Positions 13,098-46,381 of a stretch of DNA of 56,715 nt are shown here, in pieces; the stretch's first letter is position 1; each line of letters begins with the position of its first letter. This stretch comes from a virus. The position numbers and the translations under genes were made by a program. The notes beneath the pieces were generated by a model. It was given only the letters and a program-made list of their open reading frames with translations. It did not search any database and had not been told where the DNA came from. The stretch lies in IMG/VR virus record IMGVR_UViG_3300009545_000025, positions 1 through 56,715 of that record. The stretch is one strand, 5' to 3'.

Positions 13098-13171
13098 TGG
13101 CGGTGACGGGATTTGAACCCGTGCCCTACGCCTCGGTGGCGTCGCTCTGCTTATCTCTGAGCTACATCGCT
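13098..13171 (-). tRNA. Degenerate tRNA-like sequence
   Basis: On the minus strand: acceptor-like AGCGATG/CACCGCC (five of seven pairs), TA, a D-stem GCTC/GAGC with an 11-base loop lacking GG, anticodon-arm pairs ACGCC/GGCGT closing only a five-base loop without U33, and a perfect T-arm (ACGGG-TTCAAAT-CCCGT). No CCA follows. The T-arm is convincing, but the anticodon arm could not decode, so this is probably a decayed tRNA or a tRNA-derived element, not a working gene. Confidence 0.5.
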
Positions 13172-17846: not shown

Positions 17847-19538
17847 CTATGCGTGTGCCGTCTCGGGAAACAGCCAGTCAGCAGCCCGAACTTGCCCCGG
17901 TCCTGGGTAGTCGATCAGCGTAAGTGTCTTCAGCGAGCCGCGCAGGTTAGCGAAGCCGCCGGAACTAGCACTATAGCCCGCGATATCGGCGATTTCAGCC
18001 GAAGATATGGGGTTCGGGTAAGCAGCCAAAGCTGGATCAAGTACACGAACCTGGGGTGCGGACAACTTGGCCCTCACGGAGGCGTGGAAGGCATCCCGCG
18101 TTAGCGCCACGGAGGGAATATTTGAAAGAGCCGCACCCACATCCGTAAGCATCAGCCGGCCGCCAGCCGGATAGTCTATCGACCCCGACGAGCGAAGCTG
18201 CCCGGTTAGGTTGGCGAACCCTCCAGAACTTGGCGAATAGCCAGCGATAAATCCAACCTGTTCCCGGGTCGGCTGTTCGATACCGAAGGCTCTCCACCAA
18301 GCAATGGCGTCGAGAACGCGCTGCTGCGGCACAGTCACGCCATCGGAGGCTGGGCCGCGCTGCTCTTTGGCCTTGGGTGCGGCTCTCTGTGCGGGCTGTG
18401 GTCGCTCTTTCGCCTCGGCGGGTGCATCGACCCGCAAAGCATTCAACGCCTGCTGGGCTCGCGCTATGCCTATGGCGATGCCGACGCACTCACCTTCCTT
18501 GCGCGCCTTCTCTATTTCGTCGGCATTAGCGATCACCGCCGGGAGTGGTTCGGCAGGCGTCGCCGTGATCTTGTTTGCCTGGACCAGTTCGCGGGTAAGG
18601 CGCGCAATCTCGGCTTTCAGCGCCTTCGGATCATTCGCCTTGGTTTCAGCGTCCAACCCCGCTAGCCTTTCCTTGAGGACGCCCAAGTCCAGCGGCTTCA
18701 GGACGGCATTCCGCACGATCTCGCCGCGTTTCGGTGTCCGCGAGCTGTCGAAAGTCGCTTTGGCCGGGAAGGTCGCAGTCTGCAAGACATTGCGCCCCGG
18801 TATCCAGACAACACCTTGGCCCTGCTGCATCGCGGGAAGTGACCCGAGGATTTCCCGTCCCTGGGCTCTGTCGGCCATCCCTTCGATCCAAGCCCCGATG
18901 GCATCGCGATCTTGAGAGGCCGTAAGCTTAAGCGCGATCAAGCCATCCGCCTGGCTAAGCACATCCTTGCTCAGCACCGCCGGTCGTTGCGTGATCAGCC
19001 ATGGGATGAATCCGCGCACACGCCCGCGCCGGACGATCTCTTCCATCCTCGACTGCAACATCGGCTCGCTGGCTTTCTGGGGCGCGAATAGGTCGGCCTC
19101 ATCGAACACCATATGGAACGGCCCGTATTTCGCGTGTTCGGCCTTCCGATAGATCGCGTCAAGGAATGCGAGCATGAACCGCCGTTCTGCCGTCTTTGTC
19201 GCCATCCCTCCAAGGCTAATGACGCAACTCTCGGCCATACCCGCGACAGTCTCGCCGATCAGCGCGCCTGCCTGCTCGCTCAGCGGCAAATCGCCATGCG
19301 CGCCTCCGAAGATCACCACCTTGAACTTCGACGCGCCCTCGCCGTCAGGGCTGACACGCAAGCCCCACCAGACATCAAGGGGGTCAACGATTACGACGCG
19401 AGCGCCAGAGGCCAGTAGCCTCTCGACTGCGGTCCCCGCTGCATAGGTCTTCCCTGATCCCGTCGTGCCAACAAAGGCGAGCCGATCATCAAGGGCTGCG
19501 CTAGGAATAGGATATTTAGCCATCTTCATCTTGACCAT
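17847..19538 (-). CDS. HerA/FtsK-superfamily ATPase with tandem C-terminal winged-helix-like repeats
   Basis: 563 residues. Walker A GTTGSGKT (24-31), Walker B HMVFDEAD (141-148), then WLITQRPAVLSKDVLSQAD, typical of HerA-type hexameric DNA pumps. A coiled-coil/Ala-rich linker covers about 285-400. The C-terminus holds two copies of a unit containing AGYSxSSGGFANL..L followed by IDYP (residues about 404-466 and 494-552), likely DNA-binding. The start ATG lies only three bases from a palindrome shared with the divergent RHH gene, with no clear ribosome site; MAKYP five codons in is an alternative start. Possible role in DNA processing or partition. Confidence 0.8.
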   Translation of the reverse strand: MVKMKMAKYPIPSAALDDRLAFVGTTGSGKTYAAGTAVERLLASGARVVIVDPLDVWWGLRVSPDGEGASKFKVVIFGGAHGDLPLSEQAGALIGETVAGMAESCVISLGGMATKTAERRFMLAFLDAIYRKAEHAKYGPFHMVFDEADLFAPQKASEPMLQSRMEEIVRRGRVRGFIPWLITQRPAVLSKDVLSQADGLIALKLTASQDRDAIGAWIEGMADRAQGREILGSLPAMQQGQGVVWIPGRNVLQTATFPAKATFDSSRTPKRGEIVRNAVLKPLDLGVLKERLAGLDAETKANDPKALKAEIARLTRELVQANKITATPAEPLPAVIANADEIEKARKEGECVGIAIGIARAQQALNALRVDAPAEAKERPQPAQRAAPKAKEQRGPASDGVTVPQQRVLDAIAWWRAFGIEQPTREQVGFIAGYSPSSGGFANLTGQLRSSGSIDYPAGGRLMLTDVGAALSNIPSVALTRDAFHASVRAKLSAPQVRVLDPALAAYPNPISSAEIADIAGYSASSGGFANLRGSLKTLTLIDYPGPGQVRAADWLFPETAHA

Positions 19539-20617: not shown

Positions 20618-20883
20618 GACTCCCCTCCCAGGCTATCGCTATAGGGAACGGTCGCGGAACGCCGCGTGTCAGCAAATTGCCGAACGTGCCAGCGGAAGCC
20701 TTCGCGTTCTTTCGCCGTTCTGCACTCGATTGCGCGCTGCTCTAGAACCCGAATGCGCCAGACTACCGGGGCTAGACATAAGGATTTCCGCCCCTTATAA
20801 GCACCAACCTGCCTTCGGGCGGGCGCGTAGCTCAGCGGGAGAGCACACCCTTCACACGGAGCGGTTCGCAACTTCCTAACCAT
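20614..20883 (-). CDS. Uncertain small gene downstream of integrase, crossing attP
   Basis: 89 codons from an ATG overlapping the integrase end to a TGA that overlaps the next gene's ATG. The last 50 residues (WRIRVLEQRAIECRTAKERE, FRWHVRQFADTRRS) look like real protein, but the first 40 are simply the reverse complement of the tRNA-like attP region. Either the 5' end was replaced when attP arose here, or this is not translated. Integration would separate the two halves. Confidence 0.3.
   Translation of the reverse strand: MVRKLRTAPCEGCALPLSYAPARRQVGAYKGRKSLCLAPVVWRIRVLEQRAIECRTAKEREGFRWHVRQFADTRRSATVPYSDSLGGES
20773..20801 (+). promoter_or_regulatory. Near-consensus sigma70 promoter in front of the tRNA half in attP
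   Basis: TAGACA (20773-20778), exactly 17 bp, then TATAAG (20796-20801): five of six matches in both boxes. The predicted start is about 12 bases before the tRNA 5' end at 20821. No phage gene follows on this strand, so its evident use is to transcribe the tRNA rebuilt on integration. Confidence 0.6.
20821..20859 (+). other. Putative attP core: 5' half of tRNA-Val(CAC)
   Basis: GGGCGCG-TA-GCTC-loop-GAGC-A-CACCC-TTCACAC-GG is a perfect tRNA 5' half through the anticodon loop (anticodon CAC) and two bases of the 3' anticodon stem. After 20859 the match stops and no T-arm follows. It lies directly after the integrase stop on the opposite strand, the usual place of attP. Integration by crossover here would break the host tRNA gene at one end and rebuild it at the other with the phage 5' half. 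Confidence 0.65.
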
Positions 20884-22129
20884 TTGAGCCGCTGTCCTTT
20901 TTCCCTTGTCCAAAATCTCCGCGTGTCTGCGGATTGCCAATCGGTAGCGAATTGATCGCCGCCCGGCGCGTTCCCGAAACGTCATGGATGTAGCGCATCG
21001 GTGAGCGCGGGTCCTTCCATCCTTGTTGATCCATCACCCCTCGCAGGTTCCCGGTGGCGTCCATCGTGTGGGTCGCCAGCCAGTGGCGTAACCAGTGCTG
21101 CGTGACCTGTGCGAGCAATTGGGCGTCGTCCTCCCGCTCGTGCTCGATCAGCCATTTGACTGCCTTCGCGCGGCCATTGCGGAATCCGGTCTTGTTTCGC
21201 CCTCGGCTACCCTTGGCTCCGGCGCCGTAGGGCAATCCTTTGTCGGTCAAGAATAGCGGCCCCTCGCGGTCTTTGAGATTACCCCGCCACGCCAGGTATT
21301 CGCGCAGCTTTTCGGCTGCCCATGGATGGAGCGTCGCTGTCCACGGTTCGCCGTTCTTCGTGTCGAGGAATGTGATTTGCTCGCGACCTTCCGCCAGGAT
21401 CGCATCACAGATGCGGCACTCCATGAGAATGCTGGAAACCCGGTGCCCCGTGCTCCACTCGACCGCGATCTGCGGAATGATATGACGGGGCATGGATTCG
21501 ATGAGCAGGGTTATCATCTCTGGCGTCAGATCCGCGACGCGTCGGCGAGCCGGTGCCTTCTTCGTGCGGGCCTCAGGATATCGCTCAAAGGGTGGCAATG
21601 CGCGGTCGCGCCACATGCGTGATGGATGGTCTGTCCAACCAAGAAAGGCACAGACCGAATTCAGGAAGCGCTCTCGCGTAGACAGCGAGTTCTTCTCCTG
21701 CTTCTTGTCGGCCCACTTTATCCATTCGTCATCTTCTATCTCGCGGATCGGCCTGGTGCGAAAGCGCTTGGCAATTTCCTTGATCACCCAAACGTCATAT
21801 TCCGCCATAGGCTTTTTACGCGGTCGATCTAGGTAGCGCCGGCACGCGATGGAAATTGCAACAGTTGGCTTGACGCCGTAGACGAGTTCATTGAGCGTTT
21901 CGTCTTCAACCCTCTGGCGGATGGCTTCTGCCTTGGGTTTGCTGTCAGCCGTAGCGGCGAATTTAGTACTGCGTCTAACGCGCTTTGAGCGGTCTCCGGC
22001 AACGACAGTTCCGGTGATGTGCCACATCCCGTCCCGGGCTTTGACTTGGAGACCAGGCGCAGCTCGGCTTTCTTTCTGTCGGCCAGCCGGATTGCTTCGC
22101 GCAGGCTTTCGAACTCGCTTTCGGTCCAT
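20876..22129 (-). CDS. int: Tyrosine-recombinase integrase
   Basis: 417 residues. N-terminal arm-binding-type segment (MWHITGTVVAGDRSKRVRRST), SAM-like core-binding part (about 100-190), then the catalytic domain: Arg in WSTGHRVSSILM, Lys in FLDTKNGEPWTATLHP, His-x-x-Arg in TQHWLRHWLATH, and the nucleophile Tyr in PMRYIHD. All catalytic positions are present. The 5' end overlaps an excisionase-like gene; the 3' end abuts the tRNA-like attP core. Confidence 0.9.
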   Translation of the reverse strand: MDRKRVRKPARSNPAGRQKESRAAPGLQVKARDGMWHITGTVVAGDRSKRVRRSTKFAATADSKPKAEAIRQRVEDETLNELVYGVKPTVAISIACRRYLDRPRKKPMAEYDVWVIKEIAKRFRTRPIREIEDDEWIKWADKKQEKNSLSTRERFLNSVCAFLGWTDHPSRMWRDRALPPFERYPEARTKKAPARRRVADLTPEMITLLIESMPRHIIPQIAVEWSTGHRVSSILMECRICDAILAEGREQITFLDTKNGEPWTATLHPWAAEKLREYLAWRGNLKDREGPLFLTDKGLPYGAGAKGSRGRNKTGFRNGRAKAVKWLIEHEREDDAQLLAQVTQHWLRHWLATHTMDATGNLRGVMDQQGWKDPRSPMRYIHDVSGTRRAAINSLPIGNPQTRGDFGQGKKDSGSNG

Positions 22130-35563: not shown

Positions 35564-36676
35564 ATGGCGCGCATCCGCTCTGTTCATCCCGGCCTGTTCA
35601 CCGATGAGCGCTTTGTCGAGCTTTCGATGGCGGCGCGCATTTTCCTTATCGGGCTTTGGACTGAGGCCGACGATCAGGGGGTGTTTGTCTATAAGCCAGT
35701 CACCCTCAAGATGAGACTGTTCCCGGCGGACAATGTATCCGCCGAAGAAGTGCTAGCCGAGGTCACTGCAACCGGGGCCGTCGTTAGGTTCCAAAGCGAC
35801 GGCAAGGAGTACGGGGCAATACGGAACTTCTGCAAATGGCAGCGTCCGAAGTCTCCGCAGTATATCCATCCCTGCCCGGCGGAAATTGCTGAGATCGTTT
35901 TGCTCCCCAAGACACCTGAAGACCCGGACAGTGAGCGCGGAACGGCCCTTGGCCGGATACTTTGCGAAGCGCAGAACGGCAAATGCCACTACTGTGAGGC
36001 AGATATAACTTTCTATCGCAAGCGCGCGAATTCGCTAGAGGTAGAGCACCGGATTCCAATTTCTCGCGGCGGAACAGACAAGATGGATAATCTTGTCGCA
36101 GCCTGTAAGTCGTGCAATCGGCTAAAGCGAAACCTCACCGATGCCGAGTTTTTGGCGAAGTTCGCAAAATCCGATCTCGCCGAGAGAAGCGCCTCGCAAG
36201 TTGCGAAAGATAATTCGCATTCGTTCGCAAAAGCGAAATCGGAAACTCTGCCGCAGAGGGAGGAGGGAATAGGAATTGGAAAAGAATCCCCCCCTACCCC
36301 CCCTCCGGGTGGGTTTGATCAATTTTGGAATGTCTACCCTCACAAGATCGAGGAAGACGCAGCTCGGATAGCATTCAACGAAGCCGAGAGGGTTGAATCG
36401 GTCGATGTGATTTGCGCTGGCGCCCGGCGCTATGCCGCCGGTAAGCCGAAGGACCAGCCCTGGCAGAAGGCGCACCTCTGGCTGAAAAAGAGACGCTGGC
36501 GCGACCAGTGGGGAAATATCCCCGTGATCGGAGCGAAGCCGTCCACGTCAAGCCTCTGCACCTACGACGAGATGAAGGCCAAGCAGAAGCGCCAGGCCGA
36601 CGATGGGTCTGGCCCAAAGCCGATTTCATCCATAGCGCCAACCGTCCTTCTCGAAGTCGAAGGGGTGATTTCATGA
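35564..36676 (+). CDS. Replication initiation protein with embedded HNH domain
   Basis: 370 residues. N-terminal domain MARIRSVHPGLFTDERFVEL, then LMRL..-type helix segments (VTLKMRLFPADNVSAEEVLA) and FCKWQRPKSPQYIHPCP, typical of winged-helix phage replication proteins. Residues about 125-190 form an HNH nuclease: CEAQNGKCHYCEADI, EVEHRIPISRGGTDKMDNLV, ACKSCNRLKRN. After a Ser/Lys linker, residues 245-330 (FDQFWNVYPHKIEEDAARIA, WQKAHLWLKKRRWRDQW) match the usual C-terminal helicase-loader-like part. The linker-coding DNA carries iteron-like repeats. Confidence 0.8.
   Translation: MARIRSVHPGLFTDERFVELSMAARIFLIGLWTEADDQGVFVYKPVTLKMRLFPADNVSAEEVLAEVTATGAVVRFQSDGKEYGAIRNFCKWQRPKSPQYIHPCPAEIAEIVLLPKTPEDPDSERGTALGRILCEAQNGKCHYCEADITFYRKRANSLEVEHRIPISRGGTDKMDNLVAACKSCNRLKRNLTDAEFLAKFAKSDLAERSASQVAKDNSHSFAKAKSETLPQREEGIGIGKESPPTPPPGGFDQFWNVYPHKIEEDAARIAFNEAERVESVDVICAGARRYAAGKPKDQPWQKAHLWLKKRRWRDQWGNIPVIGAKPSTSSLCTYDEMKAKQKRQADDGSGPKPISSIAPTVLLEVEGVIS
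36127..36290. other. Candidate replication origin inside the replication gene
   Basis: TTCGC or its complement GCGAA occurs seven times in about 110 bp (36127, 36155, 36161, 36203, 36214, 36224, 36233), often as TTCGCAAAA, with two palindromes: GCGAA-G-TTCGC (36155-36165) and TTCGC-AAAA-GCGAA (36224-36237). A purine-rich run (36257-36287) follows. This is the arrangement of lambda ori within gene O: iterons plus an easily melted tract. Confidence 0.55.
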
Positions 36677-43057: not shown

Positions 43058-46000
43058 ATGGCCGGCCAGGACCCGCTCAAGCCGAAGGATTCGGGCAAGA
43101 TCGGCTTGCCTCGTCTCGGGCCAGGCATGAACAAGAAGCCCCCGACACCCAAGAGCGGCGGCAAGGGGTCCAAGGACGACAAGAAGTCCCTCATGCTCGG
43201 CTCCGACACGGACAGCAAGGGCAAGAAGGACAAGCAGCTACAGGAGGATCAAGACCTCCTAGCTCGGATGCGGAAGAACTTCGACAAGGCCATCAGCAAC
43301 GAAGCTGAGAACCGCCGGGATGGCTTGGACGATGACAAGTTCTATGCCGGCGACCAGTGGCCGAACGTCATCCAGCAGAACAGGAAGCTTGATCAGCGTC
43401 CCTGCCTGACGATCAACAAGTTCCCGACCTTCGTCCACCAGATCACCAACGACCAACGGGAAAACCGCCCGACCATCAATGTAAGCCCGGTCGGAGATCG
43501 ATCGGACCCGGAAGTCGCGAAGATGTATCGCGGCCTCATACGGTTCGTTGAGCGGGAATGCACCGCCGAGACGGCATACGACGAGGCGTTCGAAAGCACA
43601 GTCCGAAAGGGCTGGGGCTATTTCCGCATGATCACCGAGTACGAGAGGCCCGACAGCTTCAACCAGGTGCTTCGGGTTATCCCCGTGTGGAATGCCTTCA
43701 CCGTCTATGCCGACGACCAGGACCAGTCCGATACAGGCGAGGACATGAAGTGGTGCTTCATCACGGAGATGATCCCGAAGAAGGAGTTCGAACAGGAATA
43801 CCCGGACGCCCAAGCTCTTGCGTGGGAGCTTCAAGGGACAGGCGATTCCATGAAGAACTGGTTCTCGCCCGATGCAATCCGGGTGGCGGAGTATTTCGAG
43901 ATCAAGAACGAGATGCGCGATCTCGTTTACCTGTCCACCGGACACACCGGGTGGAAGGACGAGCTGAGCGACGAGATTCTGGACGATATTGAGTCGGGTA
44001 AAATCACCATCGAACGCGAGCGGCGTTCACCGCAGCCCAAGGTCAAGTGGTACAAGGCGACTGCTCTTGAGGTGCTGGAGCGCAACGATTGGATCGGCTC
44101 CTCCATCCCGGTCTATCGGGTCATCGGAGATCGGATCAACGTCGAGGGCAAGAACAAGCTCTTTGGCATCATCCGCAACTCCAAAGACGCCCAGCGGATG
44201 TACAATTACTGGTGCCCGCTGTCGCTGGATACGCCGATCCCGACACCGACCGGCTGGACGACAATGGGCGATGTGCGACCCGGTGATTACGTGCTGGGGG
44301 ATGACGGCAAGCCGACTCTTGTCGTTGGAGAAAGCCCGATCAAGATCGGCACTCCCTGTTATCGAGTAACGTTCGATGACGGCTCGCACATCGATGCCAA
44401 CGACGAGCATCCGTGGCAGGTCAGCGAGCGCGGGAAGCGCACGGCAAGGAACTGGTCGTGGTCCACGAAGATCGTCACCACCAAAGAACTTACGCCCAGA
44501 AAGCACTACATCCCCACAACCTTACCGCTCGATTTACCTGAGACCGACCTTCCTATCCACCCGTACTTCCTGGGTGCGTGGCTTGGCGACGGGAAATCGA
44601 CCGAGCCGCAGATGTGCGCAGGGGACGCGGACATCCACGAGATGCACCAGCGTCTTGCCGCCTTCGGTTGCAGGGTCGGCGGGATACGCAAGTATGGCGA
44701 CCGTGTCGGAGTGTTCACGGTTCATGGCGTTCGCAAGGAATTCAGCAGGCTTGGCCTATTAGGCAATAAACACATCCCGGCAATGTATCTTCGCGCCTCC
44801 CGCACTCAGCGCCTGATGCTTCTCCAAGGGCTGATGGATACGGACGGTGCGATATCCAAGAACCATCAGTGTAGCTTGACAACCGTCTTCCCGGGACTGG
44901 CTGAAGGTTTTGCTGAGCTGCTTCGCGGCCTCGGCATTAAGGCCGTGAGCATTAAGCGCGCCGGTAGGAGGCAAACATTCCCAGGCGGCAACACTTACGA
45001 TTGCTCCGACGCGATTCAGTTCTCTTTCTCTCCCCAGTCGGAAGATCGGGTCTTCTTGCTTGCTCGTAAAGCCGCCGAGCTAAACAGGAATCGCGTATTT
45101 CACCGCCTGCGCACGAAGCGGCATTCGATTGTGTCGGTGGAGCCGATCCCCTCTGTGCCCGTCAAATGCATCCGTGTGGACAACGCCTCTCACCTATTCC
45201 TCGCCGGGGAGAGCATGGTTCCCACGCACAACACTGCGGAGACGGAGATCGTCGCCCTTGCCCCCAAGGCCCCGTGGGTTATGGAGGAGGGCCAGATCGA
45301 GGGCCATGAGGACGAGTGGCAAACCGCCAACACCAGATCCATTCCTGTGCTGCAATATCGCGGCGTAAGCGTTAACGGCACCCTCGCCCCTCCCCCACAG
45401 CGTCAAACACCTTCCCCCGTGCCCTCGGGCATTGTCAACGCCAAGCAGGGCGCTGCCCAAGATATGATGGCGACGACCGGCATCCGGTTCGACAGCACGT
45501 TGCAGGAGCGGACCTACGATGAATCCGGGCGCGCTCTCAGGGAGTTGCAGCGCAAAGGCGACGTTGGTTCATTCCATTACTTCGACAATCTGTGCCGGAC
45601 CCTGAAGCGATTGGGCGCCGATATGGTGGAGTGCATCCCGAAGGTCTATGACGCTGAACGGATTGTCACCATCCTCCGTGAGGACGACAGCGAAGAGCGG
45701 GTGAAGATCGATCCGCGCCAGTCCAGGGCTTCGAGCGAGGTCCGGGGCAAGGACGGCAAGACCCTCAAGATATTCAACCCTACCTTCGGGGAATATGGCG
45801 TCACCGTCACCATCGGGCCGAGCTACGCAACGAAGCGGATCGAAGCCGTTGAGTCCATGATGCAGTTCGTCTCTGCCCTGCCTGAGACTGCTAAGTACGT
45901 CGTTGACCTGATCGCGAAAAACCAGGATTGGCCGGGAGCCTCTGAGATCGCCGGCCGCCTCGCCAAGGTTCTGGCGATGCAGGCGCCGCAACTGATGATG

Positions 46001-46381
46001 CCCGACATGAAGGACGTGCCGCCTGAGGCCGCCGCGCTGATCCAGGGCATGGACGCGCATATCAAGCAGATGACGCAGCAGCAAATGCAGATGCTGCGCG
46101 CCTTGAACGACAAGGAGGCCGACCGCCAGGTTGATCGTGAGAGCATCCAGAAAGACTTCGAGGCCAAGCTTCTCAAGGTCGTCGCGGACTATGACGCGAA
46201 GATGCACCAGTCTCATCAGAAGATCGTGGACACCATGCTTTCTCACGGTCGGTCGGTCGATGAACTGGGAACTAAGGTTATCGAGCTTTCCCACAAGATT
46301 GAGCAGGGCGAGCGGTCGTCCGACTTGGCCGAGCGCAAGCTTGAGCAAGATGGGCAACAGGCTCAGCAGAGCGCGGCATGA
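43058..46381 (+). CDS. Portal protein precursor containing an intein (P22 gp1-like)
   Basis: 1107 codons; removal of the 340-residue intein (residues 386-725) leaves 767, close to the 725 of P22 gp1. The N-extein runs to RMYNYW, and the C-extein resumes TAETEIVALAPKAPWVMEEG, QIEGHEDEW, a highly recognisable P22-portal segment. The end (residues about 1020-1107) is a charged coiled coil, like the P22 portal barrel. Forms the dodecameric vertex through which terminase pumps DNA; it is followed by scaffold and coat genes as in P22. Confidence 0.9.
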   Translation: MAGQDPLKPKDSGKIGLPRLGPGMNKKPPTPKSGGKGSKDDKKSLMLGSDTDSKGKKDKQLQEDQDLLARMRKNFDKAISNEAENRRDGLDDDKFYAGDQWPNVIQQNRKLDQRPCLTINKFPTFVHQITNDQRENRPTINVSPVGDRSDPEVAKMYRGLIRFVERECTAETAYDEAFESTVRKGWGYFRMITEYERPDSFNQVLRVIPVWNAFTVYADDQDQSDTGEDMKWCFITEMIPKKEFEQEYPDAQALAWELQGTGDSMKNWFSPDAIRVAEYFEIKNEMRDLVYLSTGHTGWKDELSDEILDDIESGKITIERERRSPQPKVKWYKATALEVLERNDWIGSSIPVYRVIGDRINVEGKNKLFGIIRNSKDAQRMYNYWCPLSLDTPIPTPTGWTTMGDVRPGDYVLGDDGKPTLVVGESPIKIGTPCYRVTFDDGSHIDANDEHPWQVSERGKRTARNWSWSTKIVTTKELTPRKHYIPTTLPLDLPETDLPIHPYFLGAWLGDGKSTEPQMCAGDADIHEMHQRLAAFGCRVGGIRKYGDRVGVFTVHGVRKEFSRLGLLGNKHIPAMYLRASRTQRLMLLQGLMDTDGAISKNHQCSLTTVFPGLAEGFAELLRGLGIKAVSIKRAGRRQTFPGGNTYDCSDAIQFSFSPQSEDRVFLLARKAAELNRNRVFHRLRTKRHSIVSVEPIPSVPVKCIRVDNASHLFLAGESMVPTHNTAETEIVALAPKAPWVMEEGQIEGHEDEWQTANTRSIPVLQYRGVSVNGTLAPPPQRQTPSPVPSGIVNAKQGAAQDMMATTGIRFDSTLQERTYDESGRALRELQRKGDVGSFHYFDNLCRTLKRLGADMVECIPKVYDAERIVTILREDDSEERVKIDPRQSRASSEVRGKDGKTLKIFNPTFGEYGVTVTIGPSYATKRIEAVESMMQFVSALPETAKYVVDLIAKNQDWPGASEIAGRLAKVLAMQAPQLMMPDMKDVPPEAAALIQGMDAHIKQMTQQQMQMLRALNDKEADRQVDRESIQKDFEAKLLKVVADYDAKMHQSHQKIVDTMLSHGRSVDELGTKVIELSHKIEQGERSSDLAERKLEQDGQQAQQSAA
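44213..45232 (+). mobile_element. LAGLIDADG intein in the portal gene
   Basis: 340 residues. Block A: Cys1 in CPLSLDTPIPTPTGW; block B around DANDEHPWQV (His67); LAGLIDADG motifs YFLGAWLGDGK (about 118-128) and LLQGLMDTDGAISK (203-216); blocks F/G KCIRVDNASHLFLAGESMVP-THN with the penultimate His and terminal Asn. The +1 residue is Thr. All residues needed for splicing and both endonuclease acids are present, so it should be active. The insertion lies at the conserved YNYW/TAETE junction of the portal. Confidence 0.93.

Follow-up and report, generated by a model that had tools for sequence, protein, structure and literature searches.

A probable phage attachment site holding the 5′ half of a tRNA-Val(CAC) gene and an apparent copy of the host gene's promoter

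Islands integrated in tRNA and tmRNA genes usually carry a fragment of the 3′ end of their target. Among the 3,919 such islands mapped by Islander, 3,760 have a 3′ fragment and 159 a 5′ fragment (PMC4383910), which agrees with a remark in the initial annotation of the locus described here that most tRNA-targeting phages duplicate the 3′ end. Tyrosine integrases that act at the anticodon loop (the symmetric sublocation in the classes of Williams 2002, as these are summarized in PMC8371274 and PMC4383910) are described in those summaries as crossing over in a 7-base loop flanked by a palindromic stem, with a tRNA half in attP that restores the interrupted gene. All of this has an observed or predicted counterpart in our locus. 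According to the same summaries, however, nearly all of these integrases rebuild the 3′ half, and the native promoter continues to drive the gene, whereas the locus studied here would rebuild the 5′ half and bring a promoter along with it.

The window, that is, the whole stretch of DNA analysed, is the virus record IMGVR_UViG_3300009545_000025, with a length of 56,715 bases, and represents a soil-type phage. Its attachment region (Table 1) contains a promoter, a leader and the first half of a tRNA-Val(CAC) gene, and 16 bases beyond the half tRNA lies the stop codon of an integrase gene encoded on the opposite strand. The identity shared with host tRNA genes stops two bases past the anticodon loop. 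The core of the site is identical to a stretch of a host tRNA gene, ends at the anticodon stem-loop and is adjoined by a tyrosine recombinase gene. Because only the 5′ half is present, the 5′ part of the host gene would be the displaced fragment, as in islands of the 5′-fragment type. To the left of the half tRNA lie a gene for a DNA-ejection protein and a weak match to a tail spike; to the right lie the genes for the terminase, the portal protein and the major head protein. The presence of phage structural genes on both sides identifies the site as the attP of a non-integrated genome and not as a prophage junction. An Rfam search returned no match near the attachment site.

Table 1. Features of the putative attachment region, with positions given in the window.
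Feature	Position	Strand	Remarks
TAGACA (-35 box)	20773-20778	+	coordinates in the initial annotation checked and found right
Spacer between TAGACA and TATAAG		+	17 bases
TATAAG (-10 box)	20796-20801	+	a 19-base leader runs to 20820
Promoter and 5′ leader of tRNA-Val(CAC)	20770..20820	+	end of leader CCTGCCTTCGGGC; likeness to host, matrix score
tRNA-Val(CAC) 5′ half, first 39 bases, GGGCGCGTAGCTCAGCGGGAGAGCACACCCTTCACACGG	20821..20859	+	exact in host genes
Anticodon loop TTCACAC, presumed 7-bp overlap for strand crossing	20851..20857	+	GG follows
Tyrosine integrase, 417 aa	20876..22129	-	PF00589 and phrog_1 matches

Several other genes of the phage deserve mention. A HerA/DUF87-like ATPase is encoded near the attachment site (17847-19538, minus strand). 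The portal protein is P22-like (43058-46381, plus strand) and is interrupted by a LAGLIDADG intein at about 44213-45232, which corresponds to residues 386-725 (the first residue is C, the last two are HN, and T comes next); this intein explains the apparent terminase matches inside the portal gene. The gene at 35564-36676 (plus strand) combines an N-terminal replication-initiation match with a following HNH endonuclease domain in a single reading frame.

A search of a genome collection found the 39-base half exactly in 68 alphaproteobacterial genome contigs. In 67 of them it opens a complete tRNA-Val(CAC) gene, and in the 68th the fetched stretch ends within the gene. These results bear out the initial annotation, which had described a perfect tRNA 5′ half that runs two bases beyond the anticodon loop and had proposed a comparison of the 39-bp core with host tRNA-Val(CAC) genes. 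When the 39-mer is completed with the 3′ half taken from the gene in the metagenome-derived genome (MAG) bog_932, the product is that host tRNA gene, base for base. Two further virus records contain the exact 39-mer. No orphan half with the exact 39-mer was found among the 68 genome contigs, where it always belongs to tRNA genes. The initial annotation had also suggested looking for prophages with this integrase. The genomes searched yielded no lysogen either of this phage or of any close relative; a candidate left junction of the 5′ type was seen beside an unrelated integrase (L111, see below). The integrase was absent from the 5 genomes of the matching order, and a search that also took in 385 genomes of the class gave a single 28% match. 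Both integration junctions of the phage are accordingly presented here as predicted ones.

We examined the promoter with a two-box matrix trained on 66 native tRNA-Val promoters, from which the two look-alikes described below (genomes G001 and G002) had been left out. The best matrix site in the 80 bases upstream of the half tRNA is exactly TAGACA-17-TATAAG, and its score is reached by only 0.15% of random phage 80-mers. A generic sigma-70 scan misses this site because it accepts only a second hexamer that ends in T. The promoter and leader, with the tRNA excluded (20758-20820), were compared with the whole genomes of five members of a small order (G001-G005, also labelled L176-L180). The top matches in G001 (MAG bog_932; 82% identical, E 4.5e-8) and G002 (MAG RYN_452; 80% identical, E 1.7e-7), both Rhodospirillales, lie directly upstream of tRNA-Val(CAC), and the remaining genome matches are at chance level. 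The local alignments of promoter and leader score 59 and 55, compared with a maximum of 32 for shuffled sequences. G003, another genome of that order, has part of the -10 box and the leader in common with the phage. The homology takes in the spacer and the leader and ends at the -35 box, which argues for common descent and not for convergence on a consensus. These alignments indicate that the phage carries a copy, since diverged, of the promoter that natively serves its target, the tRNA-Val(CAC) gene. The matrix score shows that the promoter recognised in the initial annotation is no chance likeness. The copy, together with the exact 39-mer, also points to the putative host group. A search for the promoter pattern in other viral contigs found none. 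When folded, the leader and half tRNA were no more stable than shuffled sequences, and we therefore claim no structural role for them.

We consider it very probable that a temperate phage uses this locus as its attP, that the integrase encoded beside it recombines at the anticodon loop of the host tRNA-Val(CAC) gene, and that the gene is rebuilt from the phage promoter and 5′ half. With the 5′ half in attP, integration would leave the host promoter and the host 5′ half isolated next to the integrase gene, and at the opposite end of the prophage the phage promoter, leader and 5′ half would be joined to the host 3′ half. The phage promoter, a homologue of the native one, would probably drive the rebuilt gene. 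It may have been taken up together with the half gene, and it is probably kept because lysogens need it. The initial annotation had likewise read the locus as an attP at which the host promoter is lost on integration and a phage-borne promoter serves the tRNA. This much of the interpretation is supported. Its further proposal, that the prophage would control the host tRNA(CAC), is weakened, since a promoter copied from the host would be expected to give the rebuilt gene near-native expression and not to place it under phage control.

The integrase matches PF00589 (E 2.8e-6) and the phrog_1 integrase (E 4.8e-16). Its nearest relative in named phages is the integrase of the Labrenzia phage vB_LagS-V1, in which the other (3′) half of tRNA-Val(CAC) adjoins the integrase stop; plasmid and phage searches returned this phage alone. 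A single-sequence search of viral contigs gave no match, and alignment-based searches found 24 related viral integrases. A tRNA half could be detected in 13 records, with the Labrenzia phage counted in. All 13 are 3′ halves on the integrase strand, none is a 5′ half, and the tRNAs are Val(CAC), Thr(GGT) or Arg(CCG). The 3′ half begins 13-72 bases past the integrase stop in 11 records and lies about 500 bases off in the other 2. Among the remaining relatives, the record breaks off at the integrase stop in 8 and shows no half in 4. A complete gene for tRNA-Arg(CCG), which is the target of some related integrases, is present within the phage of the window itself (13098-13171, minus strand).

On the integrase strand, the sequence of the 7-bp loop reads TTCACAC in three of the related phages (L073, L085 and L193) and GTGTGAA in the window. 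The loop starts 21 bases from the stop codon in both the window and L193, in opposite orientations. Because a CCC/GGG stem flanks the loop in many of the related sites, we infer that inversion of the loop inverts the half that is rebuilt. The rebuilt half might thus flip in evolution: given the palindromic stem, inversion of the 7-bp loop and a swap of the distal half would convert a 3′-restoring attP into a 5′-restoring one, and the phage would then be obliged to capture and keep the promoter of its target, a 'promoter prosthesis' that tracks the host lineage. We regard the case for this scenario as evenly poised.

Three unrelated integrases lie next to a 5′ half that is identical or nearly identical to this one. 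One of them (L002) has the identical 39-mer in quite different flanks, and another (L110) lies beside a near-identical 5′ half. In the third, L111 (UViG_2788500370_000004, from an isolate genome), the tRNA ends after the loop and the integrase follows. The upstream ORF of L111 matches that of L119 (52% over 59 aa), as does the promoter (93% over 88 bp), and in L119 the tRNA is complete. L111 has the appearance of a left junction in a 5′-type lysogen, with the host promoter stranded; the right junction falls outside its record. In a tree the 5′-half integrases do not group together, although the deep branches are weak and several branches are long. Since the search for 5′ halves was limited to Val(CAC), a preference for tRNA-Val(CAC) cannot be claimed. 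Five relatives within the L002 family have, on the strand of the integrase, a 3′ half of Thr(GGT), Arg(CCG) or Ser(GCT). The matrix recognised no promoter at the 5′ halves of L002 and L110, which shows that not every 5′-type site has a recognisable promoter, and the region upstream in L002 gave no match when compared with host promoters.

The orientation of the promoter allows another use for it. The promoter is directed at the 3′ end of the integrase gene, and because a scan of 20860-21300 found no terminator-like site in between, transcription antisense to the integrase 3′ end is predicted, both in attP and in the left junction. The latter would have the same geometry, with the host promoter facing the integrase, as in L111. 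The promoter and half gene could then serve mainly to make an RNA in the phage, in which case read-through would damp the integrase and rebuilding of the tRNA would be secondary. We think this quite unlikely, because the host homology begins exactly at the -35 box and finishes exactly where the shared half does, as a tRNA-rebuilding unit predicts, and because in related phages a 3′ half occupies the equivalent place. The half gene could also be a passive relic of an old transduction that came to lie beside the integrase and not an attachment site at all. That the genomes searched contained no junction of the phage would fit such a relic, but tRNA halves occur at the same position in the integrase relatives, and L002 has the identical 39-mer in entirely different surroundings, which makes a relic highly improbable.

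A further alternative concerns the first owner of the promoter. The gene order 3′ of tRNA-Val(CAC) is common to G001, G002 and G003, and on the 5′ side the three have nothing in common, as repeated insertion on the 5′ side would leave it. The promoters of G001 and G002 could accordingly be phage-derived, brought in by integrated elements of the 5′ type, with the phage as the older owner. This synteny is only suggestive, because most of the upstream genes tested in G002 and G003 have ordinary metabolic roles, and none of those tested is an integrase or a recognised phage gene. In addition, no orphan half tRNA was found in these genomes, and plain rearrangement accounts equally well for the break in synteny. 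We therefore consider phage ownership unlikely; that G001 and G002 share no upstream genes makes the host, as against a mobile element, only the probable first owner of the promoter.

With the promoter read as a copy of the host's, the locus offers a clear sequence case of a phage with the native promoter of its target gene. Such a copy answers how 5′-restoring phages can leave integration harmless, and it can be used to predict the host of a phage that is uncultivated. In addition, the window and its relatives form a matched pair (one target, related integrases, opposite halves) in which the control of integration polarity is directly testable. One close comparison is with vB_LagS-V1 and the UViGs L085 and L193, whose integrases are about 42%, 41% and 40% identical to that of the window. 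They share its target, tRNA-Val(CAC), and have the core just past the integrase stop, but they carry the 3′ half and the loop is opposite relative to the integrase. In the archaeal pTN3-like integrases (Cossu 2017, as cited in PMC8371274), the integrase gene is described as being split on integration and the driver as the integrase promoter, whereas in the window the driver would be a copy of the host tRNA promoter. Mycobacteriophages with tRNA-dependent lysogeny (PMC10865867) resemble the window in that the phage offsets, with a promoter, the tRNA lost on integration; unlike the window, they carry a whole separate tRNA gene, and neither junction rebuilds the host gene. The 5′ type of integration is thus a known, rare minority, to which this locus adds a promoter copy of apparent host origin and matched relatives of opposite polarity.
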